64,000 bases of DNA from NCBI GenBank assembly GCA_017450705.1, contig JAFSTC010000001.1, positions 1 to 64,000 on the forward strand, given 5' to 3'. The position numbers and the translations under genes are program-made. The first letter of the stretch is position 1, and each line of letters opens with the position of its first letter. Below, piece after piece: positions 48,772 through 64,000 of the stretch. Below the pieces are notes generated by a model. It did not search any database, was not told where the DNA came from, and worked only from the letters and a program-made list of their open reading frames with translations. The stretch comes from Lentisphaeria bacterium (GTDB taxonomy: Bacteria > Verrucomicrobiota > Lentisphaeria > Victivallales > Victivallaceae).

Positions 48772-51339
48772 ATGGGTGAGTACTGGATAGGACCGGGCGT
48801 GACTTCATCCGGCCTGGTTTTGAACGAGGGCGATTTTCTTCTGGTCAATTTCGGCGGGACCGCCGTTTTGACCACGATCCGCGAGGATGGCGGGATGGAG
48901 GTCGACGGATCGGCCCTTTCGACCACGATCTCCAGCGGCGGCGAGATGGAGGTGGATGCCGGCGGCTCCGCGGCATACGTCTTCATCAAAAACGGCGGCA
49001 CGCTCATCGTCAACCATGACGCCCGCGCCGTGAACGTCGAATGGACCCCCGGCGTCGGAGCCGTCGAGCTCGAGGACGGTTCGTATATTTCCTTCACGAA
49101 TTCCTATTCCGGCGTTTACTTCGCTTCCGGCGGAAATCTGCTCTCCAACACTTCCGTCATGACCGGCAAGACGGTCGGGGGAAATTGCTCCGCCATCGTG
49201 ATGTCCGGCGGAACGGCCTCCTCTTTCGGCATTTCGAACGGCGGCTGCGTCGAACTCTGGTCCGGCGGCAGCGCCGATGCCGCCCGGGTCTCCCGTTACG
49301 GGATGCTGATCGTGCGCAGCGGCTGCACCGCGACCAACGTCGCCTGGACCCCCACCGTCGGAGAAGTTTACTGGGAGAACGGCGCTGTCGTCATGTTCGC
49401 CAACTCCTACTCCGGCGTGTACTATGGCAACGGAGCGTCCCTGCTCTCCCACGCTGCCGTCCTGACCGGCAAGGTCGTCAGCGGCGACGACAACGAGATC
49501 CAGGTGTGGAGCGGCGGCACCGCGGTCATGGCGACCGTGCGGGGCGACGCCGAAATGTGGGTGGAGTTCGGCGGCACGGCGACGAAGACCGCGGTGGAGG
49601 AGGGGGAAATGGACATTCGCGCCGGCGGCCTGGCCCTCTCCACGACGGTCTCTGGGCGCGACGCCGAGGTCTACGTTTCCAGCGGCGGCGTCGCCTCCCG
49701 AACCGAGATCGTCTCAGGCGGCCTCATGAAAGTCGTTCCCGGCGGCAGCGCGGTCGATACCGTCGTCAATCAGAGCGGCACCCTGAAGGTGAGGCTCGGC
49801 GGCACGGCGGTTTCCACCACCGTCAGCTCCGGCGGTGTTCTTCTGCTCAACGGCACGGCCGTCGACGTCACCGTCGATTACCAGGGCGACATGGAGATCT
49901 CCAGCGGCGGCACGGCCGCGGGAACGATCGTCGGCTCCAAGGGATTGCTGGTTGTCTCCGGCGGCGGCACGGCTTCCGGCGTCACGGTCAACTCAAGAGG
50001 GGCCCTGAATGTCGACTGCGGCGGCACGGCTTCCTCTGTTGTCGCCGGTTCCAAGGCGTATCTGGCCATCGACGGGACGATTTGCGGGATCCGGCTTGAG
50101 AACGCGGTGGACGGCTTCATCGGTCCCAATGCGGAAGTCTCCTTCGACCTGACGGCGCGGAAGACTTTCGACCCGGCCGTGGTCAACAATCTCGCGGCGC
50201 TGATGTCTTTGGGAACGCCGGACTTCACCATCACCGTTTCCGCGACACAGACCGAAGGCGTCTACACCCTCGCCGAAAATGTGGTTTATTTCGGAGGAGA
50301 GACCTTCACCATCTCCGACACGCGGGGCGAAAGCGCCGATCTCGCCGTCGGGAGCACCGTCACTTTGTCGGACCGGGATTACACGCTGAACCTCGATTCC
50401 GATACGCTCACGCTGACCGTCTCCGGAGACCCCGTCGTCCCCATTTCCCCCGGCGACCTCAACGGCGACGGCAGGGCCGACGTCGTCATGTCCATCACCC
50501 AGCCGGGCCACGGCGCGGAGGGCGCCACCGGCGCGTGGCTGGTTCAGGAAAACCAGACCGCCGTCTGGGGCGATTTGAGCCAGCGCAACGCGGGCTGGGA
50601 GATCTTCGGCATGGGCGTCACCACGGCGGGCAAGGCCACCAATGACGTCTATGTGAAGAACGCCGACAACGTCATCGGTGCATGGGTCACGGACGATTCG
50701 GGACACGTTTCGGGCTGGGAGACCGTGGGCCAGTTCGACGACTCGACCCAGATCCTCGGCCTCGGCGACTTCAATGCCGACGGCCAGACCGATCTGCTTC
50801 TGCGCAACGTCAACGGCGCCGTGGGTTGCTTCTTCACCGGCGGCGAGACCACCGGCTGGAACTACTTCCAGAGCCTCGGCGATGAGTGGAAGATCGCCGC
50901 GGTGGGCGACCTCAACGGCGACGGCCGGGACGATGTGGTCCTGAAGCACGACGCGGGCTTCGCCGGGAGCTGGCTCACCCAATCCGACGGCACCATGGCC
51001 TGGTCCGACCTCGATACCGTGGGCGAGGGATTTGCCATCGCAGGCGCGGGCGACTTCAACGGCGACGGCATCGATGACGTCTTGCTTCAGAAAGGCACTT
51101 ACTTCGGAGCATGGCTCGTCCGGGACGGCAGCGCCCAGGCCTGGTTCGGCCTCGGCGACTTGGGCTCCGTCGCCGTGGAACAGATCGCCGATTTCGACGG
51201 CGACGGCACCGACGACCTTCGCGTCCGCACTTCCGCAGGCGACCTGGGCGCCCAGCTCGTCAAGGGCGCCGACACCCTCGAATGGCGCTACTACGGCAGC
51301 GTCGGCAACGAATGGAGCACCAGTCTCGCCGCCATCTGA
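48772..51339 (+). CDS. Large AIDA-repeat / FG-GAP-repeat surface protein
   Basis: 855 aa. Residues ~1-440 are beta-helix-like AIDA repeats (GGTAxxTTVxxGGxxxVxxGG), including two copies of an SYSGVY-containing unit. Residues ~560-855 form FG-GAP/VCBS-like repeats with calcium-loop signatures DLNGDGRADVV, DFNADGQTDLLL, DLNGDGRDDVVL, DFNGDGIDDVLL and DFDGDGTDDLRV. There is no signal peptide and no autotransporter barrel. Such proteins are numerous in Lentisphaerota and are inferred to be exported by a type I-like route and to act as adhesins or coat. SD GGAAGGAGC. No secretion genes adjoin it. Confidence 0.88.
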   Translation: MGEYWIGPGVTSSGLVLNEGDFLLVNFGGTAVLTTIREDGGMEVDGSALSTTISSGGEMEVDAGGSAAYVFIKNGGTLIVNHDARAVNVEWTPGVGAVELEDGSYISFTNSYSGVYFASGGNLLSNTSVMTGKTVGGNCSAIVMSGGTASSFGISNGGCVELWSGGSADAARVSRYGMLIVRSGCTATNVAWTPTVGEVYWENGAVVMFANSYSGVYYGNGASLLSHAAVLTGKVVSGDDNEIQVWSGGTAVMATVRGDAEMWVEFGGTATKTAVEEGEMDIRAGGLALSTTVSGRDAEVYVSSGGVASRTEIVSGGLMKVVPGGSAVDTVVNQSGTLKVRLGGTAVSTTVSSGGVLLLNGTAVDVTVDYQGDMEISSGGTAAGTIVGSKGLLVVSGGGTASGVTVNSRGALNVDCGGTASSVVAGSKAYLAIDGTICGIRLENAVDGFIGPNAEVSFDLTARKTFDPAVVNNLAALMSLGTPDFTITVSATQTEGVYTLAENVVYFGGETFTISDTRGESADLAVGSTVTLSDRDYTLNLDSDTLTLTVSGDPVVPISPGDLNGDGRADVVMSITQPGHGAEGATGAWLVQENQTAVWGDLSQRNAGWEIFGMGVTTAGKATNDVYVKNADNVIGAWVTDDSGHVSGWETVGQFDDSTQILGLGDFNADGQTDLLLRNVNGAVGCFFTGGETTGWNYFQSLGDEWKIAAVGDLNGDGRDDVVLKHDAGFAGSWLTQSDGTMAWSDLDTVGEGFAIAGAGDFNGDGIDDVLLQKGTYFGAWLVRDGSAQAWFGLGDLGSVAVEQIADFDGDGTDDLRVRTSAGDLGAQLVKGADTLEWRYYGSVGNEWSTSLAAI

Positions 51340-51952: not shown

Positions 51953-52037
51953 GCCGGAGTGGCGGAATGGCAGACGCGCTAGACTCAAAATCTGGTACTC
52001 CTAGAGTGTGTGGGTTCAAGTCCCACCTCCGGTACCA
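51953..52037 (+). tRNA. tRNA-Leu(CAA)
   Basis: Acceptor arms GCCGGAG and CTCCGGT pair, with discriminator A and an encoded CCA (52035-52037). The anticodon stem CTAGA/TCTGG encloses the loop CTCAAAA, giving anticodon CAA (reads UUG). A long variable arm (TACTCCTAGAGTGT) and the T-arm GTGGGTTCAAGTCCCAC complete a class II leucine tRNA. Its 3' end abuts the integrase of the element and is the likely attachment site. Confidence 0.95.
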
Positions 52038-52086
52038 TTTTTAACCTCAAAATTGCAAAAACTTCCCCAAAACTTCCCCATTTTTG

Positions 52087-52115
52087 TTGCGAACCTGTGT
52101 TTTGAATGCTATATT
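52087..52115 (+). promoter_or_regulatory. Promoter for the integrase
   Basis: TTGCGA at 52087-52092, 17-nt spacer, TATATT at 52110-52115 with extended TGC. Confidence 0.65.
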
Positions 52116-52147
52116 GTGCCGTAACGTGCCGACAGGATGGTCACGTC

Positions 52148-53506
52148 ATGAAAGCAAACGGTGTTCAGAGGGGCAGGAAGAGATTGAAGCAGTTGCGAGG
52201 GAAATTACGGCAGAAGGAAAAAGACGGTCCCTATTACTACCGGCTGATGGTGGCAGATGGGGTCCGTAAAGAATTTTCCCTGAAAACCTCCGACTTTGAG
52301 GAAGCCTGCCGGAAAGCAGCCGACCTGGATGCTGTCTGGGAAGCGCCGACCCAGGATGTCGCCATCGCCCAGATCAAAGCCATCAAGGGATTCTCGAAAA
52401 TCGCAGAAAATCTTCCTCTGTCCGGGATATGGGCAAAATACGAAGTCCATCCGGATCGTGCCAGGCCCTTGACTCCGCACGAGTCGTTGATGTATCGTTC
52501 CTCCCTTCAGGAATTCATTGGCTACGCAGAGGGAAGAAGCGGTAATGAAAAAGGACAGCGGAGGGCTTTATCGGTCATTTCTGATATTACTCCGGAGGTC
52601 GTTTCCAAGTATATCGATTATCTGAAAACCACGAGAATTGCAGTCGATACCCACAATCGGAAAATAAGGCGTATCCGCAAGATATTCGAGTGCCTGAAAG
52701 ATTACTGCGGCGGTGAAAATCCATTCCGGGCCAAGCAGATCTTCCGTAATCAGCGCGAAGAACAAGGAAATGTTGTCCGGAGGCTGGCTTTGACGCAGGA
52801 GCAGGAACAGCAGCTTCGGGACGTGCTGGCTGATACTGAGCATCGGGTCATGAACAAGCCTGAAATCCGGGTGGTTTACTATGTCGGGATGTACACCGGA
52901 CAGAGGCTGAAGGACTGTGTGCTCCTCCAGTGGCAGAACGTGGACCTGAAGCACCAGCGGATTTTCGTCAAACAGTTCAAGACGGGCAAGGAGGTCACGA
53001 TCCCGATAGCGCCTCCGTTGTTCGAAGTGCTGAAGGAAGCGCAGGCTTGGCGTGTCGATCAGTATGTCTGCCCGAAAACCGCGGCCCGGTACAACAAAAC
53101 CAATGCGGTGGGAAAGAACGTCGGCAACAATCTCGTGAACATCGACGTTCTCCGGGTAATCCGCTGGATCGGCCTTGAGCCGTCTGTGGATGTGCCGGGC
53201 AGGGACAAGAAGATGACGGTCTACGGCTTCCATTCTCTGCGTCACTCGTTCTGTTCGTTCTGTGCTGAGGCCGGAGTATCCAAGGCGGTCCTGCTTTCGA
53301 TTCTGGGAACAGATTCGGAAATCGCGGACAAATATTACACGCATGTTGGGGATGCGGCCCAGAGAGAGGCGATCAACGCGATCTCCGGAGTCATGGGAAA
53401 TGACTCGCTGAAGGATCGGGTTGAAGCCGTGATAAAGCTGCTGGATTCCAAACCGGAACCGACTCAAGAAGTGTTGGATCAGATCAAAAGGATGCTTGAG
53501 GCGTAA
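52148..53506 (+). CDS. Tyrosine recombinase (integrase)
   Basis: 452 aa from the ATG at 52148 (AGGA upstream); an in-frame ATG 14 codons earlier overlaps the -10 and is less likely. Residues ~15-60 are a basic arm-binding region; the SAM-like core-binding domain covers ~85-200. The catalytic set is visible: Arg in MYTGQRLKDCVLLQW (~252), HSLRHSF (H-x-x-R, ~361-364), LGTDSE (His replaced by Thr/Asp context) and nucleophile Tyr in DKYYTHV (~396). Integrases placed beside a tRNA usually recombine into its 3' end. It ends in a terminator that lies over the tail of the next, opposing gene. Confidence 0.93.
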   Translation: MKANGVQRGRKRLKQLRGKLRQKEKDGPYYYRLMVADGVRKEFSLKTSDFEEACRKAADLDAVWEAPTQDVAIAQIKAIKGFSKIAENLPLSGIWAKYEVHPDRARPLTPHESLMYRSSLQEFIGYAEGRSGNEKGQRRALSVISDITPEVVSKYIDYLKTTRIAVDTHNRKIRRIRKIFECLKDYCGGENPFRAKQIFRNQREEQGNVVRRLALTQEQEQQLRDVLADTEHRVMNKPEIRVVYYVGMYTGQRLKDCVLLQWQNVDLKHQRIFVKQFKTGKEVTIPIAPPLFEVLKEAQAWRVDQYVCPKTAARYNKTNAVGKNVGNNLVNIDVLRVIRWIGLEPSVDVPGRDKKMTVYGFHSLRHSFCSFCAEAGVSKAVLLSILGTDSEIADKYYTHVGDAAQREAINAISGVMGNDSLKDRVEAVIKLLDSKPEPTQEVLDQIKRMLEA

Positions 53507-53527
53507 ACCGCAGATAAAGTAGTTTCA

Positions 53528-55237
53528 TCAAGGCTCGGGGATAGGCTTATCTTCCGAGCCTTTTTCTTCTCCCGGCTCTTCAAAAATGGTATTCGCTTTT
53601 TTGAAAAGTGTATCGATCCAGCATTGATAATCTTCCCTGGTAAAGTTGTATTCGGTCATCAGTTCTTCCAATATGCCGGGCGAAGCCACGGATGCCAGAA
53701 GGCAATCCATTTTTTGCTTTCCTGACAATTTCGGCTTCTGATTTTTTCTCTTGTCGCCGTTGTCAGGCCCTTTTGCTTTCGTTGCCGCAGGAGGTTGAGG
53801 GGGCGGAAAATCCTTATCCCATTTCAGGAAAACTGTTTTCTTCAGACGTCCCTTAAAAGTTATTGTAAATGAGGCATTGACAGGAAACAAATCAGCTTTT
53901 TGCATCAATTCGGAAAAATTCTTCAGAGTCACCGGAATATCAAATAACATGAATCTTCCCATGCGGCTGTACGGGGAATCACAGAGTATGGCCGATTTGG
54001 ATATTCTTTTTAAGAAAAGGAGCGTATCATTGTCAGACATGCCCTCTGATTGAGGGACATAAAGCTCAAGTTGGATGTTGGTTAATATGGAACCGGCGGG
54101 GATGCACTTGAAACCATTCCCCGTGAGATGCTCTCTTGTCTGAATAAATTTTCCGCGAGGAGAAAGTTCGATTGGCAGCTCTGTGAATCCATTGGCCTTC
54201 CATTGCATTGCCTTTGCTTCTTCCGTTCGACCGATAATTGCGCCTCTCAATGTGATATTTAATTTTTGTTGTTCCGCTTTTGAATATGCCGTCACAGGAT
54301 CATGGATTACGGATGACTCGTTGTACTTGATCAAACTCGTTTCAAGCTCTTTTATTTTCGGTCTGAGCTTTATTTTTTCCGCTCTGTTTTTGTCGTGGAT
54401 ACATTGCTCGAACTTTTGAGTCAACCGGGTGTATTCGGCAAAAATTTTATCCACTCGGGCTCGTGTTGATTTCCTCTGGGGGATCTGATCTGCGACATTA
54501 AACGCTTTAAGGAGAAATGTATTGACGTTAACATCGGAATCACCGATGTCTTCCAGAATATAAAATCCAGGATCGATTTCAACAAAACACCATTTCAGGA
54601 TATCAGCAAAAAAATAAAAATCATCCGACGGCCATGGAAGGTTCTTGAAAGAATTTTCCCGATACTTTTTGCGGAATCGAAGAAATCTTTTCCTTAGCCG
54701 CTCATATTGTTCCGGATTTTCTTTGCGGTTAAAGTGAAAAGTTTTTTCCAATTCCTCAGAGATGACGATGTTCGAATGCGATTTTTTTCTGCAGAGTGAA
54801 AGCATGTTTACATAATCGGCATCGTGCTTGATACTGGCACTTTTTTCTTTGACTGATTGCAGCAGCCCCAATTTTTTGATGGCCGCGTGCATTTTTACGC
54901 ATTTCTGCCACACCGGATTTTTTGTTCGCGGCTGCCGGACATAAAAATCGGGATCACAGATAAACTGATTTATGATTTTCTCTGCCTGAGCACACTTTCT
55001 GTAAATGAAAACAAGAACGGTCAAATGCAGAAGATAATCTTGTGCAATTTCGTTCTCGATCGGTCGATAGAGTTCGCATTGCTTCAGATACAGTGCCCGC
55101 AATTCATCCGGAAGCATAGCAGCCGCCGAATGTTCGGCGAAATCCACGGCGGTATAGCTGCAAAGGGTTTCGATGGGCTGTTGGAACAATGAGTCAATAT
55201 CGTTGTTCCCTTGCGATTTCAGAGCGACGGTCTTCAT
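53528..55237 (-). CDS. Orphan AT-rich protein of unknown function
   Basis: 569 aa. The ATG at 55235-55237 has GGGAGG eight bases before it; an in-frame ATG eight codons earlier overlaps the -10. No known domain, signal peptide or membrane segment is seen. The protein is mostly helical with many Lys/Glu, a coiled-coil stretch near 265-315 (DKIFAEYTRLTQKFEQCIHDKNRAEK), and a Lys/Pro-rich linker near 495-515. Its base use is more AT-rich than both the host genes and the rest of the element, a sign of separate origin. It is convergent with the integrase and divergent from the AlpA-like gene, the usual slot for cargo such as defence genes; this is context only. Confidence 0.85.
   Translation of the reverse strand: MKTVALKSQGNNDIDSLFQQPIETLCSYTAVDFAEHSAAAMLPDELRALYLKQCELYRPIENEIAQDYLLHLTVLVFIYRKCAQAEKIINQFICDPDFYVRQPRTKNPVWQKCVKMHAAIKKLGLLQSVKEKSASIKHDADYVNMLSLCRKKSHSNIVISEELEKTFHFNRKENPEQYERLRKRFLRFRKKYRENSFKNLPWPSDDFYFFADILKWCFVEIDPGFYILEDIGDSDVNVNTFLLKAFNVADQIPQRKSTRARVDKIFAEYTRLTQKFEQCIHDKNRAEKIKLRPKIKELETSLIKYNESSVIHDPVTAYSKAEQQKLNITLRGAIIGRTEEAKAMQWKANGFTELPIELSPRGKFIQTREHLTGNGFKCIPAGSILTNIQLELYVPQSEGMSDNDTLLFLKRISKSAILCDSPYSRMGRFMLFDIPVTLKNFSELMQKADLFPVNASFTITFKGRLKKTVFLKWDKDFPPPQPPAATKAKGPDNGDKRKNQKPKLSGKQKMDCLLASVASPGILEELMTEYNFTREDYQCWIDTLFKKANTIFEEPGEEKGSEDKPIPEP
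53530..53566 (+). terminator. Intrinsic terminator of the integrase
   Basis: AAGGCTCGG (53530-53538) and CCGAGCCTT (53554-53562) form a perfect 9-bp stem followed by TTTTTCTTCT. It overlaps the stop of the opposing orphan gene. Confidence 0.85.
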
Positions 55238-55259
55238 GGAACACCTCCCGATTTTCCCC

Positions 55260-55288
55260 AATATACCACCCGCTCATGCAAAAGTCAA
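55260..55288 (-). promoter_or_regulatory. Promoter for the orphan AT-rich gene
   Basis: Minus strand: TTGACT at 55288-55283, 17-nt spacer, TATATT at 55265-55260 with extended TGG. A strong match. Confidence 0.8.
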
Positions 55289-55295
55289 ATCCAAT

Positions 55296-55328
55296 ATGGG
55301 ACACTTCAATATATTTTAAATGTCCCAT
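55296..55328. promoter_or_regulatory. Inverted repeat, candidate operator in the divergent region
   Basis: ATGGGACA (55296-55303) and TGTCCCAT (55321-55328), perfect arms 17 nt apart, directly upstream of the orphan gene's -35. Arm spacing (25 nt centre to centre) suits two dimer contacts or looping. Confidence 0.5.
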
Positions 55329-55339
55329 CATTGAGCATA

Positions 55340-55401
55340 AATTCACTCAAAATAATTTTTGAAATTATTTTTCATAATTCACTCGGAACACGTGGTATAT
55401 T
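55340..55401 (+). promoter_or_regulatory. Palindrome between direct repeats, with -10 for the AlpA-like gene
   Basis: AATTCACTC at 55340-55348 and again at 55376-55384 flank a perfect 10+3+10 palindrome AAAATAATTT TTG AAATTATTTT (55349-55371). TATATT with extended TGG lies at 55396-55401, but no -35 is seen at the right distance, so this promoter probably needs an activator. Confidence 0.6.
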
Positions 55402-55440
55402 ATCTCCGTTACGCAGAAAACACGCAAAAAAAAGGTCAAG

Positions 55441-55839
55441 ATGGAGGTTTTCGTGGCCCGAACTGAAGAAAGATTGCGGCTGCAGACGGTATATCTGGCG
55501 TGCCGCCTGCTGGCCCAGCTTCTGGACTCCGGCTTGGTTACGAGTGGCGAACTCTCGATCATCCGTCGGAATCTGACGGCGCTGGCAAAGACCGGCGAGT
55601 TGGCTCCCGTGATCCCCCCGAGGCTGATTACGGGCCCGGAGGCGGCGGAGATGCTCTCGGTCTCCTATTCCCAGTTCCGTGCTCTGGAAAAGGAAGGAGC
55701 GTTTCCGTTCAGGCGTCGAATGATCGGTGGCAAGACCGTCCGTTACCTCAATAAGGACATCCTCGACTATGCCCAGACCGGCTCGCTCGAAGACGGTTGC
55801 CAAAAAGAGGAGGGGGGAGACGATGAGAATAAAAAATAG
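55441..55839 (+). CDS. AlpA/MerR-like winged-helix protein (excisionase or regulator)
   Basis: 132 aa. Residues ~1-58 are an N-terminal helical part; ~60-113 (PRLITGPEAAEMLSVSYSQFRALEKEGAFPFRRRMIGGKTVRYLNKDILDYAQ) form a compact winged helix of the excisionase/AlpA type, with the helix-turn-helix at EAAEMLSVSYSQFRALEKEG. In P4-like elements AlpA activates integrase expression or aids excision. Here it heads the replication operon, and the palindromes just upstream may be its own sites. The C-terminal tail is acidic. Confidence 0.8.
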   Translation: MEVFVARTEERLRLQTVYLACRLLAQLLDSGLVTSGELSIIRRNLTALAKTGELAPVIPPRLITGPEAAEMLSVSYSQFRALEKEGAFPFRRRMIGGKTVRYLNKDILDYAQTGSLEDGCQKEEGGDDENKK

Positions 55840-55916
55840 GGGACCACCAGTCTGATGAAGAGGGACAAACACGTAGGCAAGTATAGTTTTCCAACCCAAA
55901 GAAAGGAATATCAACA

Positions 55917-56927
55917 ATGGAGGAAGACAAATTCGAGCATTTGATCATAGCCGGATCGCGCGAAAATTGCGATTCTGCCGACATGGAGGAAATGTACCAT
56001 TGGGTTACCGAGGCAATTTCCGATCATCAAACCAGTTACAAGAGCGCTGCAGTTGCTGTCGCTTTGCATCAAAAGTTTAAGTTCTATGAACGGGACGGCA
56101 AGAAAAGTACCCGAAGGTATCTGCTGTCCCTGGGGTATTCGAAGGGGACGATCTCGCATCTCCTGAAATATGGAAACTTTATCATTCTGATGGGGTTTGC
56201 ACCGCATCAGATCCCGCCCGAGTCCGTAGTCCGGGCGATCCTGACAAACAAAAATGAAAACCTGTGGCAGACGCTCTACACGACGGCTTGCCAAAAGCAT
56301 TACCTTGCCGCGAAATCGGCGCGGGATCTGCCCCGCGCCAACGTCGGCAGTGCGGCATCCCGTACCGCGGGCGCTCGGAACACCGAAGCTGCTTCCAGCA
56401 TCGCAAACGAGTGCGAAGGCGACGAAGAAGAAAAAGAAGAGAACAGCGCCGTAATGGTCGACGGGGCGAATCTCTCCGACAGAGACGAAGCCTCTGCCGA
56501 GGACGAAGCCGGGCCCCCCGGCGTTGATCCCCAGGATCAAGTGACGCCGAACCCTATCTGGGACCATGTTCCCACGGGAGCGGAGATCCGTGCCGTCCTT
56601 GACGAGTACCGGCGCAATGACCCGGATTACATCCATCTGCCCCACATTGGGGAAACCATGTCCAGGCAGGAAACCTTCTCGGGGGCGTTGGAAAAGTTCA
56701 AAGAGAAACTTTCAAGCGTGGTGACCCTTTGCCATACAGTGCAGGACTTTAGGGACGCGGGCGGAACGCTGTCGGGGGCAGATGCCGATGCGATCACCCA
56801 GTTCTGCGCGGTCATCCATAAACGGGAAGACGAGCGCCTGAAAAGCGCGATCAGCGGCGAATCCGCCGCCGATGACAGCAGTGATCCCGTCGAGGAAGCC
56901 GCCGATGATGACGGCGAAGAAAAATAG
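55917..56927 (+). CDS. Element protein of unknown function with possible HTH
   Basis: 336 aa. The N-terminal ~100 residues contain SYKSAAVAVALHQKFKFYERDGKKSTRRYLLSLGYSKGTISHLLKYG, which reads like a helix-turn-helix of the ParB/Rep type, but no family is recognised. The middle (~145-210) is acidic, Ala/Glu-rich and probably disordered; the C-terminal ~110 residues are helical with another acidic tail. SD AAAGGA. Position between AlpA and the replication genes suggests a control or partition role, unproven. Confidence 0.75.
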   Translation: MEEDKFEHLIIAGSRENCDSADMEEMYHWVTEAISDHQTSYKSAAVAVALHQKFKFYERDGKKSTRRYLLSLGYSKGTISHLLKYGNFIILMGFAPHQIPPESVVRAILTNKNENLWQTLYTTACQKHYLAAKSARDLPRANVGSAASRTAGARNTEAASSIANECEGDEEEKEENSAVMVDGANLSDRDEASAEDEAGPPGVDPQDQVTPNPIWDHVPTGAEIRAVLDEYRRNDPDYIHLPHIGETMSRQETFSGALEKFKEKLSSVVTLCHTVQDFRDAGGTLSGADADAITQFCAVIHKREDERLKSAISGESAADDSSDPVEEAADDDGEEK

Positions 56928-56936
56928 CAGAATCAG

Positions 56937-56966
56937 CTTGTCCTCCGCTCGCGAGCGGGGGACAAG
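56937..56966 (+). promoter_or_regulatory. Strong stem-loop inside the element operon
   Basis: CTTGTCCTCCGC (56937-56948) pairs with GCGGGGGACAAG (56955-56966), one G-T pair, loop TCGCGA. No T-tract follows, so it is more likely a processing or protein site than a terminator. Its right arm runs into the palindrome at 56965-56982. Confidence 0.6.
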
Positions 56967-56982
56967 TTGTCTGCAGACAACT
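56965..56982. repeat. Element palindrome, copy 1
   Basis: AGTTGTCTGCAGACAACT, a perfect 18-bp palindrome in the gap before the 233-aa gene. Related copies lie at 59103-59118 and 61103-61118. Confidence 0.7.
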
Positions 56983-57001
56983 ATTCACGAAAGGTAAAAA
57001 A

Positions 57002-57703
57002 ATGGACAAAGAAATGACAGAACCGATGGTCGCGGAGCAGTCGCCGGAGTCGGCGTGTTTTGCGCCTCCGGTTCCGGCAGGGAACAAAACCGAGGTCGTT
57101 AAGGGCTTCCATCCGGAAACTCCCGCAGGCTTTTTGAACCGGGCGATGTTCGCATTTCAGCCGTTCGGCAGTACAATACCGCTGATGAGCATGGAGGCGG
57201 CAACGGAAGAAAAACTTGCGCGGGCGGCGGGAGTCGGTGGTAATCCGCACCCGGCTTACGCGGAAACCCGCCGTCGTATCCACGTCATCGCCACGCAGTT
57301 CTTCAGCGTGGAGTGGATGTTCAATAGGCCGCCGGTGACGTTCGCCGCGGACCGGCTGGCGGAGATAACTGCTTATATCAACGCACTGCCCAAGCCCCTC
57401 GGGTACGACTATATGCCCGTGCTGCATCGAGAAGCGGCTCTTCTGATTCCGCGGACGATCGAGTACGCTTACGATGTTGATGAAATGCTCCGCAGCTTTT
57501 TTATCTGGCGGGAAAACTGTAGTTTCCTGCACGATCCGCTGTTGATTGTCGGGCTTTTTCTGCTTTTTTTCGGGAAAACCCTGGAAGTGAATTTTTTTCG
57601 TCAGTTCCGTTATGATCTCGTCATCGATGCGATCATAAGTGGGCAGCCGGAACCTGATATCCGCTGCAGCGTCAACAACCTCATCCATCGGGGGCTTGGG
57701 TAG
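57002..57703 (+). CDS. Element protein of unknown function
   Basis: 233 aa. SD AAAGGT before the ATG. A Pro/Glu-rich first ~60 residues precede a helical body (RRIHVIATQFFSVEWMFNRPPVTFAADRLAEITAYINALPKPLGYDYMPVL). A strongly hydrophobic stretch near 175-195 (HDPLLIVGLFLLFFGKTLEV) may be a membrane helix or a buried strand. No domain recognised. It ends 1 nt before the next ATG, so the two are probably coupled. Confidence 0.7.
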   Translation: MDKEMTEPMVAEQSPESACFAPPVPAGNKTEVVKGFHPETPAGFLNRAMFAFQPFGSTIPLMSMEAATEEKLARAAGVGGNPHPAYAETRRRIHVIATQFFSVEWMFNRPPVTFAADRLAEITAYINALPKPLGYDYMPVLHREAALLIPRTIEYAYDVDEMLRSFFIWRENCSFLHDPLLIVGLFLLFFGKTLEVNFFRQFRYDLVIDAIISGQPEPDIRCSVNNLIHRGLG

Positions 57704-57704
57704 A

Positions 57705-58739
57705 ATGGCTGATGTGTGTATTTCCGCCGGCGAACCGCGAGGGCGCAAGAAGGAGGCGAAAGTTTCCATGACTTCCAAGGCCGAATTCGCCCATCTTGCA
57801 TTTCCGGCGGGAGAGCTGCAACGGGCTCTTAGTGTGTCGCAGGGAGGCACGCAAGATGAGCTTCAGTTAGGAGAGCACCTGCGGATCGTGCGGGATACAC
57901 CGGCTTTTCCGGGCGCCCCGGCGCTTTACGGCATCGATGCAAAAGGTATCTCCGGCTCCCACCCGCTTATCGCCGGGCTGAAGGCGATCAATTATGGCAT
58001 CACGGATGAGGTGCTGCTTCCGTCTTGTGATCGGTATCCGGTTTTGAACACTGTTTTGAAATTTTTACAGGCAAGGGGGTGCGAGTTCAGCTCCGTCGCC
58101 GAATTGGCCGGGCAGATCGCTCCGGCCCTGAACTTATCCGGCGAGTGGAACGATCCCATTGTCCGGCGCAAAGAAAACACATGGCAAGAAGCGAAAATTG
58201 AGTATGAACAGTATCCGCTGATAAAGGAAACGTGGCAGGAGAGGGTCGTGCCCGTACGCGATTTCGACGGCTTTATCCGCCATCTCATCTTGGAGACGGT
58301 TATCGGCGGAGAGCGCGTCATCGTGCCGCTGACCTTCGCGAAACACCCCAAGTTCCGCCAGCCGATGGTCTGCTATTTCGCGTTTTCACCGAAATGGTGG
58401 CTGCTTGGAAGCGAGCAACTGAAGTGGTACCCGAAGGCCGAAGTGTGGATAACGAACACCCTCGGATGTACGAACAGCGTCATCGAGAACCCTCCGCGGC
58501 GTATATTCCTCTCCTACTGCTTCGGTCGGGGGATGATTCCGCATTTGGAACTTGATTGCCTGCGTGGTCGGGACGTGAAGGTCCTGATTGGAAGAAGTAA
58601 AGACAAATATGAAAACCGGCGGAACCTTGAGGAAGGAGTTTTACTGGCGTCCCGCCTCAAAGACATGGATATCAAGGTCGGGGTAAAAACCATCGAAGAA
58701 GCGTGTCCTTCGCAGGAAGGGAGGCGGCATAATGCGTAA
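57705..58739 (+). CDS. TOPRIM-like protein, catalytic residues apparently lost
   Basis: 344 aa from ATG 57705 (an in-frame start at 57639 overlaps the previous gene). The C-terminal third has the order of a TOPRIM domain as in DnaG-type and phage primases: AEVWITNTLGCTNSVI, RIFLSYCFGRGMIPHLELDCLRGRDVKVLIGRSKDKYENRRNLEEGVLLASRLKDMDIKVGV. In active TOPRIMs the first strand ends in an essential Glu and a D-x-D follows; here these read T-N-T and G-R-S-K-D. The N-terminal 150 residues match no family. It overlaps the RecA-like gene by 8 nt. Assignment by pattern only. Confidence 0.5.
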   Translation: MADVCISAGEPRGRKKEAKVSMTSKAEFAHLAFPAGELQRALSVSQGGTQDELQLGEHLRIVRDTPAFPGAPALYGIDAKGISGSHPLIAGLKAINYGITDEVLLPSCDRYPVLNTVLKFLQARGCEFSSVAELAGQIAPALNLSGEWNDPIVRRKENTWQEAKIEYEQYPLIKETWQERVVPVRDFDGFIRHLILETVIGGERVIVPLTFAKHPKFRQPMVCYFAFSPKWWLLGSEQLKWYPKAEVWITNTLGCTNSVIENPPRRIFLSYCFGRGMIPHLELDCLRGRDVKVLIGRSKDKYENRRNLEEGVLLASRLKDMDIKVGVKTIEEACPSQEGRRHNA

Positions 58740-59601
58740 GGTCGATATTAAGATTCCCAACGTGGTCTCACTTTACACGCCGAGCGATGCCGGTGTTGAC
58801 GATATCGTGCGGATGGCGATGGCGCAGGGCATTGACATCCCTGACAATCTCCGCTTGGATCGCTATGGCGCTCTTGCCGACAACACGAGGCATCCCATCG
58901 TGGAAAATTTAATAACGGCCGGAGAAATTACGGTAATGACCGCGCACACGGGCGTTGATTTGACGTTGGTGGCGTGCAGCATTGTTTCCGGACTGCGTAA
59001 CGGCGGGATTTATCCGGGTAAATGGCCGTGCTGCCGCAAGGTCAACCCCGCACTGTTCATCAAGAGCAATACGAAGCCCCGGCACGAGACCATTTTCAAG
59101 GAGTTGTCGGCAGACAACCCGCCCAGTTATGAAATCCCCTGCGGCAACAGGGAAAAGGTGGAAAACGATCTTCAGCACATCGTCAAAGAAAACGGCTTCA
59201 ACGTCTTCGTTTTCGAAGCCCGGCAAATCGTCGGCGAATATAAAAAAGAGCTCCAGACCGCCTGTGAATGGGCACAGAAACACCGGATAGGAGTCGTCGT
59301 TATCGTCTCGGAAGAGGATCGGTCAGCGGAGGCGTTTTTCAGCGATATCGGCAGTCGGGACATTCATTTTTGGTGGCCCGAAAAAAACAGGCACGAGTAC
59401 ATAGTTGAAGATCGGCCGCTGTTGTTCGGCGATGCTTCGGCGTTTAAGATCACGCTCAACAGGCATGAGTGGTCGGTTCAGGAACACGCGGAAGATGAAC
59501 TGCGGGCCTTGAAGGACCGCAATGTCACAATACTTCACCAGCAGTCGGAAGATGAAAACATCAATTCAACTGATCCAGTAACGCGATATAGGAGATCATA
59601 A
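58732..59601 (+). CDS. RecA/RepA-like protein with degenerate Walker A
   Basis: 289 aa. LITAGEITVMTAHTGVDLTLVACSIVSGLRNGG has the shape of the P-loop region of RepA/AAA_25 replication helicases (usually L-x-x-G-E-x-x-x-x-x-A-x-x-G-V-G-K-[ST]), but at residues 74-78 it reads G-V-D-L-T, so the P-loop Lys and Gly are missing. NGFNVFVFEARQIVGE near 155-170 sits where Walker B would be, and GVVVIVSEEDRS near 187 resembles the following strand. It therefore probably cannot hydrolyse ATP and may serve as a loader or scaffold. It sits between the TOPRIM-like and SF3 helicase genes. Confidence 0.55.
   Translation: MRKVDIKIPNVVSLYTPSDAGVDDIVRMAMAQGIDIPDNLRLDRYGALADNTRHPIVENLITAGEITVMTAHTGVDLTLVACSIVSGLRNGGIYPGKWPCCRKVNPALFIKSNTKPRHETIFKELSADNPPSYEIPCGNREKVENDLQHIVKENGFNVFVFEARQIVGEYKKELQTACEWAQKHRIGVVVIVSEEDRSAEAFFSDIGSRDIHFWWPEKNRHEYIVEDRPLLFGDASAFKITLNRHEWSVQEHAEDELRALKDRNVTILHQQSEDENINSTDPVTRYRRS
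59103..59118. repeat. Element palindrome, copy 2
   Basis: GTTGTCGGCAGACAAC, inside the RecA-like coding sequence; six-nt arms GTTGTC/GACAAC around GGCA, matching copy 1 at all but one base of 16. Confidence 0.6.
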
Positions 59602-59602
59602 A

Positions 59603-61033
59603 ATGGATCGTGACAGGATGCAAAAAATCATTGCTCGGTACGGAGAGCCGTTCCTCAAAATGAAAACGGCTCTGAAGCTCAACTGCACATGTTTGTGTAA
59701 ATTGCTCAAATCCTCGTGGCGTGTACGGTACATCCGGCCGTTGAAGCGGTACGAACGGTACAGCGTATTCGGAACGTGGGTGGAGCTCAGGGAAGATGCC
59801 GTTCTCAACCGCCTCAAGGCATTGGCTATGACCGTCGCTCCTTCTGACTGTAATCGAACGTTGATCTGCACGGCTCTGACCCACGCCGCGCTTAACGGGA
59901 TCGTGAGGCTCTTCCGGTGCGAGATCGGGATCGATAACTTTCCGCTGCCGCCCTGCCGCTTCATACACCTGCGGGATCATCTGCTGGTATTCGACAAGGA
60001 TGCGCGGCGCTTTAACGGCGTTCCGTTCTCGCCGGAGTTCAACAGCCGCAACCGGATCAATCTCCCCTACAACCCCGAGGCCAAGTGTCCGCGGTTCATC
60101 AACGATCTCGTCCTGCCGATGCTCGAGAACAAAGACGATCTGCTGCTTATCCAGCTCTATTTCGGGCAGTGTCTTCTCCACGCGAACATCAGCCAGACGT
60201 TTTTGATCATCTCCGGGCCCGCGGAGATCGGCAAAAGCGTTCTGGTGAACATCATCGAAGCCATCGTCGGCAGCGAGAATGTCACCGAACTGCATCTGGA
60301 TCGTCTGGCGAGTCCCTTCGAGCTTGCCGAGTATGCGTCGAAAATCCTGCTGACCGCCAAGGATGTTAACAACGATGCCCTGAGCGCCAACAATATCAAC
60401 GCCTTGAAGAAATACACCGGCAACGATTTGCTGACGGCCGAACAGAAGAACCGCAACAGCCGTATTTATGTCCGCGGCAACTTCAACATCATCATCACCG
60501 GCAACGGCGATCTGGCGTTGAACCTCGGGAACAGCAGGGATGCCTTCAAGCGGCGCATGATCTGGATCGACTGTCGGAAACCGGAGAACTTCAAGCGGAT
60601 CGAAGGCTTTGATAAGCTGCTTCTTGATGAAGAGCGAGAGGGGATACTGGCATGGGGTATCGATGGCGCCTTGAAACTGCTGTGCTCCGGCGGGATCATC
60701 GTCAAAGGCAAAAAGCAGGAAGAGGCCATCGAATATTTGCTGGACGAATCTTCTCCGGTCGAAACGTTCATCAGGGAACGCGTCGTTTACGATCCCGACA
60801 ACTCGATCCTTTCCCGGGATGTTGTTCCCGCCTTCTACAATTTCGCCCGGTATATCGGCTGGAACAATGACGCGGTGGTCCATTTGAGCCCCCGGCAGAT
60901 CGAACAGCGATTCAGTCAGGGTATGCTCCGTCTGCGTCCGGAGTGCCGCTACAGCACGAACATCAAGGTTCCGGGCTCCATGAAGCTGCTGCGCGGTTAT
61001 ATGCACTGTAAAATCTGCGATATTAAATTTTGA
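59603..61033 (+). CDS. SF3 replicative helicase (P4/D5-like, primase domain absent)
   Basis: 476 aa. The helicase domain shows Walker A GPAEIGKSVLVNII (~206), Walker B-like SKILLTAKDVNNDAL (~250), and motif C NFNIIITGNGDLAL (~290), followed by DAFKRRMIWIDC, the superfamily 3 arrangement of P4 alpha and D5-type helicases. The ~150 residues before it contain the D5N-like part (FGQCLLHANISQTFLIIS). No AEP or TOPRIM primase motif is present. SD AGGAGA. It unwinds the element's DNA as a hexamer in the usual model and would need a primase from elsewhere. Confidence 0.88.
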   Translation: MDRDRMQKIIARYGEPFLKMKTALKLNCTCLCKLLKSSWRVRYIRPLKRYERYSVFGTWVELREDAVLNRLKALAMTVAPSDCNRTLICTALTHAALNGIVRLFRCEIGIDNFPLPPCRFIHLRDHLLVFDKDARRFNGVPFSPEFNSRNRINLPYNPEAKCPRFINDLVLPMLENKDDLLLIQLYFGQCLLHANISQTFLIISGPAEIGKSVLVNIIEAIVGSENVTELHLDRLASPFELAEYASKILLTAKDVNNDALSANNINALKKYTGNDLLTAEQKNRNSRIYVRGNFNIIITGNGDLALNLGNSRDAFKRRMIWIDCRKPENFKRIEGFDKLLLDEEREGILAWGIDGALKLLCSGGIIVKGKKQEEAIEYLLDESSPVETFIRERVVYDPDNSILSRDVVPAFYNFARYIGWNNDAVVHLSPRQIEQRFSQGMLRLRPECRYSTNIKVPGSMKLLRGYMHCKICDIKF

Positions 61034-61197
61034 GGATAAAAACTTCCGTATATCCGTATATTTTCAGCCGCGTTCTTCACGCATGCGGCATGTGATATCC
61101 AAGTTGTCGTCAGACAACCTCTCGACCGGCTCCTCCTGCGTCAGCGTGGGTGGGGCTTTTTCTTCGGTGCGCCCATTTCCTTCGCTGTTCCATGTCC
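61034..61197. other. Gap between convergent genes with repeats, possible origin
   Basis: 164 nt without a gene. It holds tandem CCGTATAT (61046-61053, 61054-61061), a GCATGCGGCATG block, and the third copy of the element palindrome GTTGTCGTCAGACAAC (61103-61118). Short AT-containing repeats beside a replication helicase gene make it a candidate origin; this is inference. Confidence 0.4.
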
Positions 61198-63246
61198 TTA
61201 TCGTGATCCTTCCCGTACTGGCTGAAACAATGCCTGCTCGTCCCCTTCAACCGGGCAGAACATCGCGGACTGAGATCGAAGCACATCGCCCAGAAACGGT
61301 GATGGCTCTTCCGCATGACCGCAAGAGTCACGATAATAACTGATGACCAGTTCTTTTTCGGCCCGCGTGACGCCCACGTAAAGCAGGCGGCGCTCCTCCT
61401 CATAATCGCCTTGTGGATCGGGGATGACGGAAGCATTGACCCCGGCGATGAACACTTTTTTGAACTGCCGCCCCTCCGATCCGTGCAAGGTCAGCAGATG
61501 AACGTGATCCCGCTGTTCTTCAGGTTCCGTTTCCTCCTGGGCCGAAAAAGTCAGAAGATCCAAGAACACGCTCAGATCGTCGCCTGATTTTTTCAGCAGT
61601 TTTCGGCATAATCTCCGGAAATCCTGAATATCCTGTTCGGCCTCGGGATTGGCTGCGGCAAATTCGGTCAAAAAGATTTCCATCAAAGCGGTCAGAGACG
61701 ATCTCCTCATTTCCACAAAGCGTTGATTCACAGATCCCAGAACTTTCTCGAACCAGTGACCGTGTGCAGTCTGTTTGACGTCATCATCATCGTCATCGAA
61801 CCAGAACAGGGTGTCGTAGATCCATCCATCGGCATCTTCGAGTGCGGCAAAAAATTCCGGCCAAAACTTCTCGGGGATCAGAGGTTCGTCCAAGGCGCTC
61901 ATGGTCAAGTGATTCGGGGCGTCAAGGAACCGCAAATGACGAATCACGGACTGGATCACAGGTCTTTGCAGCAATGGAGTCCCGCTGCCGGAGCTGACCG
62001 GAATGTTCTTTTCGATCAAGGCTTCTCGAATCGGATGCAGAGACTCGTGATTCCGGGCAAGGACAGCGATATCCGAATATTTCAAAGGGCGCGGCTGAGA
62101 TGAATGATCGGCGGCAAGTTCGATCGACGACGCTATGAATTCTGCCTCATGAGCAGGATCCGGGCACTCTTTTACCACGACTTTGGTTCCATCGGGATCA
62201 ACCGCCTTCAACGTCTTAGGCTTACGATTCGGAGCGGGAGAGATCACATGTTCCGCGACGTCCAGGATGGCTTGCGACGACCGGTAATTGAGCGTAAGGG
62301 AAAAACGATGCACCTCACAGCCCAGAGAGTCCAGCCAGTCGTTCACGGGGTTCTCAGCTTCCCGCCCTCCGCAGATGCTTTGATCAGAGTCTCCCGCCAG
62401 AAAAAGATTCCGGTAACGCGAGGTAAGCAAGTCCAGCAGTTCGAGTTCAGAAGCAGTAAGGTTCTGAGAGCCGTCAACGAGGACATAGCGGTACCGGTCG
62501 GCGATTTCATGACACGCAGCCTCGTCATTCTTCATCAGCCAGACAAGTGCTTGGATCAGGTCGTCAAAATCCAGCAGACAGTTTTCGCGCTGGTAACAGA
62601 GGAAAGCGAACAACAAGGGATCATCGCTCTCCGCCCAGCCCATCAGAGCCGAAATATAAGGGGATGTACGTTTCTTTTGCCGGATGATCTCTTTGATTCC
62701 TGCGCCTGACAACTTACCATCAACGGCGGGGGTGTGAGTCCGGTTCCAAGTAAGAAACAGGTTCCAGTCGTCCTCGTTCATGACCCGAAAATCCTGAAAT
62801 TCATACGGCAGCAGATTCCGGAACTTACGAAGACTCCCGTAAGCAAACCCATGAAGCGTCGCAACATAAGGTCTCTCCTGCGGTCTTTCGTTTAAGAAGG
62901 CCCGGGCAATCTGATCCACGGCATGATTCGTAAAAGTCAAAATCAAAGGTCTGTGTATCCCGTCCCGCCTGTAATGGATCAGGTAACGGGCACGGAATAC
63001 GAGCGCGGTTGACTTCGCAGTTCCAGGTCCGGCTTCCACATAGTTGACCCCCTCCGTAGACAGAACGATCGCTTTTTGTTCTTCACTGAGTTTGTCAAAG
63101 CCCATTGCGGAAAGAGCGGTTTCAGATCTGTTAGCGGTGGCGGTGTCGATCCGTTTTGATCCGCAGTAAGGACAACGGACAACAGCGGTCTCTTCCGAAA
63201 AAGATTCCCGCTCGCACTGGTGACAAATAATGTGTGTCGTATCCAT
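61198..63246 (-). CDS. UvrD/Rep-like helicase with N-terminal zinc ribbon and altered motif II
   Basis: 682 aa. A zinc ribbon opens the protein (C8-x2-C11 and C25-x2-C28). The SF1A helicase follows: Walker A AGPGTAKST at 72-80 (Gly before Lys changed to Ala), LTFTNHAVDQI, motif II YVLVDGSQN at 254-262 where D-E-x-Q-D is expected, motif III LAGDSDQSI, motif IV LNYRSSQAI, VHLLTLHGSEGRQFKKVFIAG (V) and RRLLYVGVTRAEKEL (VI). The missing catalytic Glu (Gly 259) argues for weak or no ATP hydrolysis, though the fold is otherwise intact. It is on the opposite strand from the replication operon. Confidence 0.88.
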   Translation of the reverse strand: MDTTHIICHQCERESFSEETAVVRCPYCGSKRIDTATANRSETALSAMGFDKLSEEQKAIVLSTEGVNYVEAGPGTAKSTALVFRARYLIHYRRDGIHRPLILTFTNHAVDQIARAFLNERPQERPYVATLHGFAYGSLRKFRNLLPYEFQDFRVMNEDDWNLFLTWNRTHTPAVDGKLSGAGIKEIIRQKKRTSPYISALMGWAESDDPLLFAFLCYQRENCLLDFDDLIQALVWLMKNDEAACHEIADRYRYVLVDGSQNLTASELELLDLLTSRYRNLFLAGDSDQSICGGREAENPVNDWLDSLGCEVHRFSLTLNYRSSQAILDVAEHVISPAPNRKPKTLKAVDPDGTKVVVKECPDPAHEAEFIASSIELAADHSSQPRPLKYSDIAVLARNHESLHPIREALIEKNIPVSSGSGTPLLQRPVIQSVIRHLRFLDAPNHLTMSALDEPLIPEKFWPEFFAALEDADGWIYDTLFWFDDDDDDVKQTAHGHWFEKVLGSVNQRFVEMRRSSLTALMEIFLTEFAAANPEAEQDIQDFRRLCRKLLKKSGDDLSVFLDLLTFSAQEETEPEEQRDHVHLLTLHGSEGRQFKKVFIAGVNASVIPDPQGDYEEERRLLYVGVTRAEKELVISYYRDSCGHAEEPSPFLGDVLRSQSAMFCPVEGDEQALFQPVREGSR

Positions 63247-63394
63247 TTTTTTCTCCGTCTTTGTGTTGGTTTCGGGTTACCCAATACTATCTGCGGAGAA
63301 AGTAAAAAAACAACACGATAACATACTTTCCATAAGAGAGATATATTTTGTCCTCCCTCTGGCGCGCTGTTGAGGCAATCAAGTTGCCCGTTGC

Positions 63395-64000
63395 TCAGAT
63401 CTTTTCCGGATCGCTTTGTCGTTTTCCATACTGCGAGACGAAAAACTTGCGAGTGGTGCTGGGCGTGGTATCTTCCGGGATGTATTTGGTGACGTATGCC
63501 ATCTGCCGGATCATCGTTCTTCTGGTCGTCTCAAAGTCTCCCTTGCGCCTTGCCAGCATATAGCCGTTGGGACGCAGATCTCCGTTCATATCTCGATTGC
63601 AGGGATAGACCAGCTGCTTCTCGTGGACTTCCTCCGGCGTCAGGCCCAACGCGTTGCCCCAATGCCTCTCCGCCTTTTCGATGATCCTCTGTCTGCTCTC
63701 GTGTTTCTTCGCATCGGTAAGCATGTTAAGGTGGTAGTGCTGATGGGGTTGCTCTTTCTGTTCCCTGCGTCCTATGTACTGCGGATCATAGCCTTCCCGT
63801 CTGAGTTCTTTCGTCAATCCCTGTAATGCTCTGGAAAAGTCTCTGTTGCTTCCATCGGCATCCATCTCCTGCGGATACCTGAAATCCATCCTCGTCTGCA
63901 TCACTCTCCCATGTCTTCCGCTCATGTAATCTATCATCTCAATTCCTTTGTTCAGATAGGTTTTGTAAAATCTGTATCCTGTTTCTTTCTGTTCTGTTAT
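63395..64000 (-). CDS. Inovirus Gp2 / YagK-YfjJ-like protein, N-terminus outside the window
   Basis: The frame is open to position 64000, and the codons before the first internal Met (63937) read as coding (TGYRFYKTYLNKGIEMIDY), so the start is off the edge; 201 codons remain, plus the stop. Features: a hydrophilic helical start, MQTRMDFRYPQ, QHYHLNMLTDAKKHESR with an H-x-H pair, HWGNALGL, and RRTMIRQMAYVTKYIPED, the shape of the Gp2/YagK family linked to rolling-circle-type replication of inoviruses and P4-like prophages. The catalytic role of the H-x-H is inferred from the family. Confidence 0.65.
   Translation of the reverse strand: MTEQKETGYRFYKTYLNKGIEMIDYMSGRHGRVMQTRMDFRYPQEMDADGSNRDFSRALQGLTKELRREGYDPQYIGRREQKEQPHQHYHLNMLTDAKKHESRQRIIEKAERHWGNALGLTPEEVHEKQLVYPCNRDMNGDLRPNGYMLARRKGDFETTRRTMIRQMAYVTKYIPEDTTPSTTRKFFVSQYGKRQSDPEKI

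Follow-up and report, generated by a model that had tools for sequence, protein, structure and literature searches.

A probable integrative island behind tRNA-Leu(CAA) in a Lentisphaerota bacterium and its tRNA-linked relatives

Described islands and the gene content of the locus

Phage-inducible chromosomal minimalist islands (PICMIs) of Vibrionaceae were found by their core of integrase, AlpA (PF12728) and DUF5906 genes, and the type element, which has six genes, lies at fis; a virulent helper phage induces and packages PICMIs (PMC10803314). Gram-negative PICIs carry int, alpA and pri-rep genes, and in PICIs in general the replication origin adjoins the rep gene (PMC6092414). P4-like satellites combine an integrase, alpA, an SF3 (alpha) helicase and variable genes near int (PMC8628076). 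The jumbo-phage-transduced Pseudomonas islands I23, I44 and I55 have a core of AlpA, Gp2 and integrase and no transfer genes (PMC12595487). Here we analysed a 64,000-nt stretch of DNA (the window) from a gut-type Lentisphaerota bacterium, in which a 12.8-kb integrative island probably lies behind a tRNA-Leu(CAA) gene, extending from position 52,038 to a predicted right end at about 64,866-64,890, just beyond the window.

The PICMI gene set is found in the island, with matches to PF00589, PF12728 and PF19263 all above cut-offs. The island also resembles PICMIs in its unknown genes between alpA and prim, in the absence of capsid-remodelling genes and in its proposed host protection (PMC10803314). 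However, the island lies at tRNA-Leu(CAA) and its relatives at other tRNAs or tmRNA instead of fis, and it adds an AAA_25-like partner and an HUH-type Gp2 protein. The order of int, alpA and the replication genes is that of Gram-negative PICIs, but the attachment sites are different and the island SF3 protein has no recognised primase domain (PMC6092414). Among the genes scanned, no Pfam, PHROGs or NCBIfam match to the terS-like interference and packaging genes of Gram-negative PICIs was found. PICIs are similar in size to the island. The island shares the above gene content of P4-like satellites, but none of the window genes scanned matches psu, sid or delta of P4 in Pfam or PHROGs. In P4 itself, the alpha protein is fused to a primase. 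Compared with classical satellites, the related islands of 36-52 kb are large.

The Pseudomonas islands resemble the present one in having an integrase beside an RNA gene, a tmRNA or tRNA 3' end as target, AlpA, an inovirus Gp2-like gene and no transfer genes; they carry defence systems, which occur here in the larger relatives, and YqaJ, where the large relatives here have a PD-(D/E)XK nuclease (PMC12595487). Their alpA lies at the far end, they measure 23-55 kb against 12.8 kb here, their target is a tmRNA with a 14-bp repeat against a tRNA-Leu without a found repeat here, and the available portion of the source does not mention an SF3 replication module (PMC12595487). An earlier note on this DNA called the layout non-standard. 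The layout is indeed neither that of P4 nor that of a plasmid, but int, AlpA and DUF5906 form the PICMI core (PMC10803314), and AlpA, Gp2 and integrase form the Pseudomonas-island core (PMC12595487). Despite this similar content, the sites and the other genes set the family apart from PICMIs, PICIs and the Pseudomonas islands.

Integrase, boundaries and relatives of the island

The tRNA-Leu(CAA) gene (51953..52037, + strand; ARAGORN and Rfam tRNA), whose 3' end is the putative attL, is followed after 68 bp on the same strand by a gene for a 466-aa tyrosine integrase (52106..53506, +; Pfam Phage_integrase, 1.7e-16; PHROG integrase, 2.5e-38), in which the catalytic R...HxxR...Y residues are present by eye. 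In 30 of 33 cases, tRNA or tmRNA genes of many kinds precede integrases of this type on the same strand, at a distance of 25-372 bp, indicating that the tRNA adjacency exceeds chance and bearing out the proposal of an integrative element at tRNA-Leu(CAA). Integrase matches occur in 54 of the 78 genomes of the host family, with up to 22 in one genome, and SF3 relatives in 25 of the 78, in line with the suggestion of a family distinct to these bacteria. The integrase tree is scattered over the host genera: eight changes are needed for same-genus rows, against a shuffled mean of 8.7, and genera g1 and g12 share near-identical integrases. Rather than lying scattered in the core genomes of relatives, the genes move as tRNA-linked islands.

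The GC content of the island is 51% (60-63% in the surrounding contig), and all other 12.8-kb stretches of the contig have a GC content of at least 0.60. All island genes are uninterrupted reading frames, and the motifs of the integrase, SF3 and Gp2 proteins are intact. As stated in the earlier note, structural or conjugation genes were not recognised from the tRNA to the predicted right end; nor was a terminase, cos/pac or capsid-hijacking gene recognised in the island. By the same note, the idea would fall if no second copy of the tRNA end (attR) lay within about 50 kb. A scan with exact 14-mers and 20-bp windows to the contig end found no direct repeat of at least 14 bp in the 46.6 kb rightward; formally this copy falls under that condition, although relatives have clear att repeats, and it may be decayed or immobile. 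Visual inspection showed an imperfect short match near 64,880, which we consider no better than chance. To look for an empty site, the right flank and the regions downstream of tRNA-Leu were compared for synteny in 34 same-genus genomes; tblastx was swamped by GC-rich noise and no synteny was established. There are 23 other same-genus tRNA-Leu(CAA) loci without such an integrase behind them, and in two of these the locus stops at the tRNA.

Three related islands have clear att repeats of the tRNA end on both sides, of 53 bp (36.0-kb island), 41 bp (52.5 kb) and 15 bp (5.6 kb). The two larger ones carry anti-phage systems, and the defence genes of the larger relatives include type III restriction and Ssp. 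Structural genes are absent from the 5.6-kb relative, and none were recognised by eye in the 36- and 52-kb islands. The same genome also holds a duplicate of the island right end near tRNA-Phe (contig C116; 638 bp at 91%, with the match stopping at window position 64,866) and a decayed integrase fragment with a tRNA-Leu tail (contig C43). A sister remnant at tRNA-Ala in genome G032 shares with the island the order SF3 tail, iterons, palindrome, Gp2 and U145. A further region, C105, was considered as a single tmRNA island, and this reading was dropped because host-like genes separate its integrase from a DnaN-like module.

Between int and the AlpA-like gene lies U577 (53528..55261, -), a low-GC (43%) gene with no match in Pfam, PHROG, NCBIfam or PADLOC, which is probably cargo. 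A distant relative (24%) occupies the same slot in genome G039, and related locus L061 carries a different gene there, which matches PADLOC candidate defence families and has no detectable relationship to U577. The earlier note had overlooked both U577 and U145 (64304-64741), a gene at the far end of the element, past the window. The AlpA/excisionase-like HTH regulator (55441..55839, +; PF12728, 4.8e-6; PHROG 66 excisionase/regulator, 3.2e-6) passes the HTH_17 cut-off narrowly, with 27.2 bits against 27, and an AlpA-like gene beside SF3 is conserved in relatives. Its assignment and the two unknowns placed after it agree with our results; these are U336 (55917..56927, +), which has a weak relative in sister element L044 (28% over 60 aa), and U233.

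Replication module, candidate origin and Gp2 gene

The SF3 replicative helicase of the P4/SaPI type (59603..61033, +) matches PF19263 (DUF5906) with 1.5e-11 and has an intact Walker A motif, GPAEIGKS, which confirms the SF3 assignment of the earlier note. The Walker A and sensor residues are conserved across 14 sequences, and profile comparison shows that the module is conserved in relatives. The protein also matches the P4-type primase C-terminus (3.2e-25, under the curated cut-off), and no primase domain was recognised in it. Among PDB entries, the family profile comes closest to 7ola, annotated 'DNA primase' (1.2e-16), which we take to be the SaPI helicase. The SF3 core is thus held in common with SaPI-type self-loading helicases at a distance, but an AAA_25-like partner is not known there. 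A 481-aa antisense ORF over SF3 was taken as a composition artefact.

Upstream lie U233 (57002..57703, +; cluster c2), a conserved partner found by profile search at nine of 20 SF3 loci, and U366 (57639..58739, +) and U289 (58732..59601, +), which correspond to the N- and C-terminal halves of one protein that is fused in L044, L045 and, by profile, L054. The reading of U366 as TOPRIM-like is not confirmed: Pfam, NCBIfam and PDB profiles give no TOPRIM match, no DxD and none of the TOPRIM acidic residues are seen by eye, and hhalign is negative with T7 gp4 as template. A 795-aa Toprim-matching protein of genome G066 was likewise negative, and a structure model of U366/U289 (pLDDT 42) is too poor for judging the fold. 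For U289, the RecA-like assignment holds in part. The combined family profile aligns over 361 columns to the AAA_25 protein that this genome carries in its tmRNA element (hhalign 91%, E 1e-6; sub-profile c3 84%, sub-profile c5 alone nothing), but a Walker A/P-loop is absent from U289 and, by eye, from the homologs inspected. By sequence, U366/U289 is a probable P-loop-less relative of the AAA_25 protein and probably non-catalytic.

Directly after the SF3 stop codon stand tandem repeats of 8-10 bp, in the window the iteron-like TCCGTATA in two copies (61045..61060, +), which are likely the replication origin. In SaPIs, too, origin repeats lie near the rep gene. Tandem-repeat runs of at least 8 follow nine of 18 SF3 genes, compared with 3.4% of 208 other genes (Fisher p 1.2e-7, counted on related loci), and the repeat sequence changes with the helicase subfamily. 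A palindrome occurs upstream of U233 (GTTGTC-TGCA-GACAAC, 56966..56981), inside U289 (GTTGTC-GGCA-GACAAC, 59103..59118) and beside the iterons (GTTGTC-GTCA-GACAAC, 61103..61118). All three genomic copies lie inside the element, which makes up 0.3% of the genome, and iterons and palindrome are likewise paired in the G032 remnant (contig C15).

The UvrD-like and Gp2-like genes are opposed to this module, as the earlier note had it, both lying on the - strand. The first encodes a UvrD/Rep-like SF1 helicase with an N-terminal zinc ribbon (61198..63246; PF13361, 5.8e-38); a second copy (78%) adjoins Gp2 on contig C12, and this pairing is found in this genome only. The Gp2-like (YagK/YfjJ) gene (63395..64015) runs 15 bp past the window edge and matches PF11726 (2.7e-8) and, below cut-off, PF23343 (2.5e-5). 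Its HUH signature, H93xH95 and Y174xxK177, is 96-100% conserved (HxH 96%, Tyr 100% and Lys 96% in 29 rows), and the protein is a predicted nickase. IS200/IS605 HUH transposases are among the top matches of a low-confidence model, none of them significant. Gp2 is present at some SF3 loci only.

The integrase has no IMG/VR match by exact peptide patterns, and neither Gp2 nor the AAA_25-like partner has a match in the phage collection; there is thus no sign of packaging. An IMG/VR scan with a five-sequence alignment of relatives gave 70 SF3-type matches, none of which (0/70) has the rest of the cassette beside it.

Proposed explanation, alternatives and meaning

We consider it rather probable that the island is one member of a large family of helper-dependent integrative islands within one Lentisphaerota family, forming a new lineage; the family of tRNA-hopping islands is apparently undescribed. 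From the genes we infer a course in which the integrase would insert the island at the tRNA-Leu(CAA) 3' end, and the AlpA-like protein, by analogy with PICIs and PICMIs, would trigger excision, replication-gene expression or both. The SF3 helicase would load on the iteron-type origin behind its own gene and copy the excised circle, assisted by U233 and the AAA_25-like U366/U289. For mobilisation or for copying by a rolling circle, the HUH protein Gp2 may nick and unwind one of the strands, perhaps together with UvrD. Lacking genes for a capsid or for conjugation, the island would have to hitch-hike, most likely in helper-phage particles. Variable genes in the int-AlpA slot, and others in the larger relatives, may protect the host. 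A speculative and rather unlikely extension is an undescribed initiator, in which the iterons would be recognised or opened by a conserved, catalytically dead AAA_25-like protein working with the primase-less SF3, and the HUH nickase and UvrD would provide a second mode, of the rolling-circle type, with the palindromes as its possible sites.

The missing attR and the decayed sisters (C43 and C116 in this genome, and the one in G032) would fit an island that has decayed and lost its mobility, retained by chance or for its cargo; with every reading frame uninterrupted and the int, SF3 and Gp2 motifs intact, we regard this as possible but doubtful. In an integrative mobilizable element, Gp2 would be a relaxase acting on an origin of transfer, of which the palindrome could be part, with foreign conjugation machinery, and SF3 would do no more than maintain the circle. 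The intact HUH motifs, the adjoining UvrD gene and the palindromes inside the island are consistent with such a role, but Gp2 has only about 206 aa and no further domain, occurs at some SF3 loci only, and has an 88% copy on C12 with no palindrome (at most one mismatch) in 20 kb; a coupling protein was not seen, and to our knowledge YagK/YfjJ is not a described relaxase family. We judge this reading improbable. A prophage or phage remnant, of which the replication genes are seen here, is very improbable. SF3 relatives do occur in phages at low identity, the nearest in L074, a phage-like IMG/VR contig, where SF3 is apparently fused to a primase domain. However, the lack of structural genes here and in the 5.6-kb relative, with none recognised by eye in the 36- and 52-kb islands, and the failure to find the integrase in IMG/VR (exact patterns) or the partner and Gp2 in the phage collection, argue against it.

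The helper-dependent islands proposed here would add Lentisphaerota, for which the literature searched describes none, to the hosts of islands built on int, AlpA and SF3. They are abundant in the host family, and the large ones bear anti-phage systems. They also offer a compact candidate origin, in which a helicase gene is followed by subfamily-specific repeats, and a conserved protein that lacks a P-loop and has no known role. Should helper phages exist, the islands would offer defence genes a way to spread within a gut phylum that has hardly been studied.

Anatomy and inferred right end of the island

The anatomy of the locus shows that the element is inserted behind tRNA-Leu(CAA) (51,953-52,037, plus strand), which is followed on the same strand by an integrase gene (52,106-53,506). 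Behind the integrase lie a low-GC minus-strand gene for a 577-aa protein of unrecognised function (U577; such proteins are named by their lengths) and an operon-like plus-strand run, ending at 61,033, that encodes an AlpA/excisionase-type HTH protein, U336, U233, U366, U289, and an SF3 helicase. UvrD (61,198-63,246), a Gp2-type gene (63,395-64,015) and, just beyond the window, U145 (64,304-64,741), the last gene of the element, follow on the minus strand. The GC content of the element is 51% (43% in U577), compared with 60-63% on either flank and at least 59.9% in each of 121 further 12.8-kb segments taken from the same contig.

The earlier note suggested looking to the right for a direct repeat of the tRNA 3' end (attR), but a search of the 46.6 kb that remain before the contig stops revealed no repeat of the tRNA-Leu(CAA) end. 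The right end was instead inferred from two copies in the same genome, which look like decayed relatives. A 638-bp segment with U145 and a hairpin (64,228-64,866) has a second copy with 91% identity near tRNA-Phe on contig C116, and a 65-bp piece (64,827-64,890) recurs on contig C43. The C116 copy (42,160-43,403; L227:14161-15404) comprises U145 and the right end, and between it and the tRNA lies a piece of the 5' half of tRNA-Phe in inverted orientation. In the C43 remnant (49,150-50,320; L012), the 65 bp of the right end occur together with part of an integrase gene, 94% identical to that of the window, and with 17 bp that repeat the tRNA-Leu tail.

Candidate origin and replication genes

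Immediately 3' of the SF3 stop codon, the window contains TCCGTATATCCGTATAT, whose unit TCCGTATA has no further occurrence on the 98.6-kb contig. In a same-genus relative, a remnant adjoining tRNA-Ala (G032:C15) repeats the arrangement of the element: SF3 tail, three such units, the palindrome described below, Gp2, and U145. Tandem units of the CCGTATGTT/CTGTATGTT type occupy the same place in other SF3 subfamilies (loci L046, L050, L054, L056, and L057), and TGCCGTCTT-type units lie behind SF3 in L059-L063. Scoring runs of at least 8 at lags 7-12 within 90 bp behind each gene, we found tandem repeats behind 9 of 18 SF3 genes of relatives and, among 208 other genes, behind 3.4% (p 1.2e-7 by Fisher's test, which is not a strict probability because the loci are related). 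The window repeats agree in location and form with PICIs, whose origin lies behind the rep gene (PMC6092414). The position and enrichment of the repeats suggest that SF3 would replicate the island from those behind its own gene. Behind the sister SF3 gene in L072 (6100-6180), a long inverted repeat, CCACACCGTATTAC-CACCGCA-GTAATACGGTGTGG, comes after the tandem units and includes their core, CCGTAT.

The palindrome, GTTGTC-N4-GACAAC, has three copies in the 3.97-Mb genome, all inside the element (56,966; 59,103; 61,103), and only two in 33 further same-genus genomes, one of them in the G032 remnant. The backwards pattern, used as a control, occurs about 0.2 times per genome. The palindrome is likely an operator or origin-linked site. 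No copy of it lies near the 88% Gp2 copy on contig C12.

In the window SF3, Walker A and the sensor residues typical of the family are intact and no primase domain is recognised, whereas its nearest viral relative, judged by eye, seems to have one fused. U233-like genes accompany SF3 at 9 of 20 loci, and U366/U289-like genes do so, by profile, at 10 of 20. The latter form two mutually homologous groups (hhalign 96%), and a single protein in L044 and L045 is the counterpart of U366 plus U289. U366 had been called TOPRIM-like, for which no profile gives support. The RecA-like call for U289 gains some support: the family profile aligns with a 778-aa AAA_25 protein over 361 columns (91%, E 1e-6), but the P-loop is degenerate. 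In this alignment, the intact P-loop of the AAA_25 protein, ARKGVGKSAL, lies opposite a sequence that is degenerate in the family and reads TAHTGVDLTL in the window. Because a P-loop was seen by eye in none of the homologs read, a non-catalytic role for this partner is likely. The AAA_25 protein adjoins the family's second integrase in the window's own genome, at tmRNA (G000:C105; L013:8779-12958).

In the 29 rows of the Gp2 family, the HxH motif is conserved at 96%, Tyr-174 at 100%, and Lys-177 at 96%. The match to Pfam PF23343 (Rep ORF2/G2P) is below the cut-off (2.5e-5). Modelled from one sequence, Gp2 gives a weak structure (pLDDT 56), whose top matches include IS200/IS605 HUH transposases but are not significant. 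Gp2 is thus a putative nickase, founded at the motif level only. UvrD adjoins Gp2 in the window element and, with 78% identity, on C12, and at none of the other Gp2 loci compared. In both UvrD copies Walker A reads GPGTAKST, with Ala replacing the Gly before Lys.

Spread and targets of related islands

Within the host's family, part of Lentisphaerota, SF3 relatives occur in 25 of 78 genomes and integrase relatives in 54, with up to 22 integrase matches per genome. For 30 of 33 distinct integrases examined, a tRNA or tmRNA lies 25-372 bp upstream on the same strand, and the targets include Leu, Ala, Arg, Ser, Asn, Val, and Glu tRNAs, with several anticodons, and tmRNA. None of the 23 other same-genus loci, two of which end at the tRNA, has a window-type integrase behind tRNA-Leu(CAA). 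In genome G031, contigs C83 and C109 stop at 35 bp that perfectly repeat the end of tRNA-Leu(CAA), which suggests another, unassembled island at this tRNA. Host genera are scattered over the integrase tree: the genus of the window requires 8 changes versus 8.7 with shuffled labels, and near-identical integrases lie at tRNA-Ser(GCT) in two genera.

Clear att repeats bound three related islands, with lengths of 53, 41, and 15 bp and spacings of 36.0 kb (G066:C1), 52.5 kb (G066:C2), and 5.6 kb (G075:C4), respectively. The 36-kb island carries a type III restriction system, and the 52.5-kb island carries SspA, C, D, and G with an H/DndH-like protein. A module of four genes, for a DnaN-like clamp, a small unknown protein, a PD-(D/E)XK nuclease, and DUF932 (L061:1833-5961), recurs in the family's larger islands, often with Gp2 and AlpA (also L233, L235, L236, L282, L283, L293, and L295). 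The window element does not have it. At L061:12056-13537, another gene in the int-AlpA slot matches the PADLOC candidate families PDC-S14/PDC-S57 and Pfam DUF4357.

Relation to known satellites

By analogy with experiments in PICI (PMC6092414) and PICMI (PMC10803314), the AlpA-like protein would excise and/or activate this island. Since it has no recognised transfer genes and resembles Pseudomonas islands, one of which is transduced by a jumbo phage (PMC12595487), the island may be transferred in helper-phage particles. The element is not at fis, the site of PICMI, and its scanned genes give no match to the psu/sid set of P4, so we file it under neither. A search of a limited open-access literature turned up neither the lineage nor its candidate origin repeats, and neither an AAA_25-like partner that lacks a P-loop nor a combination of SF3 with an HUH Gp2. 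The element's parts are already known, and by analogy it would work like the int-AlpA-SF3 satellites.
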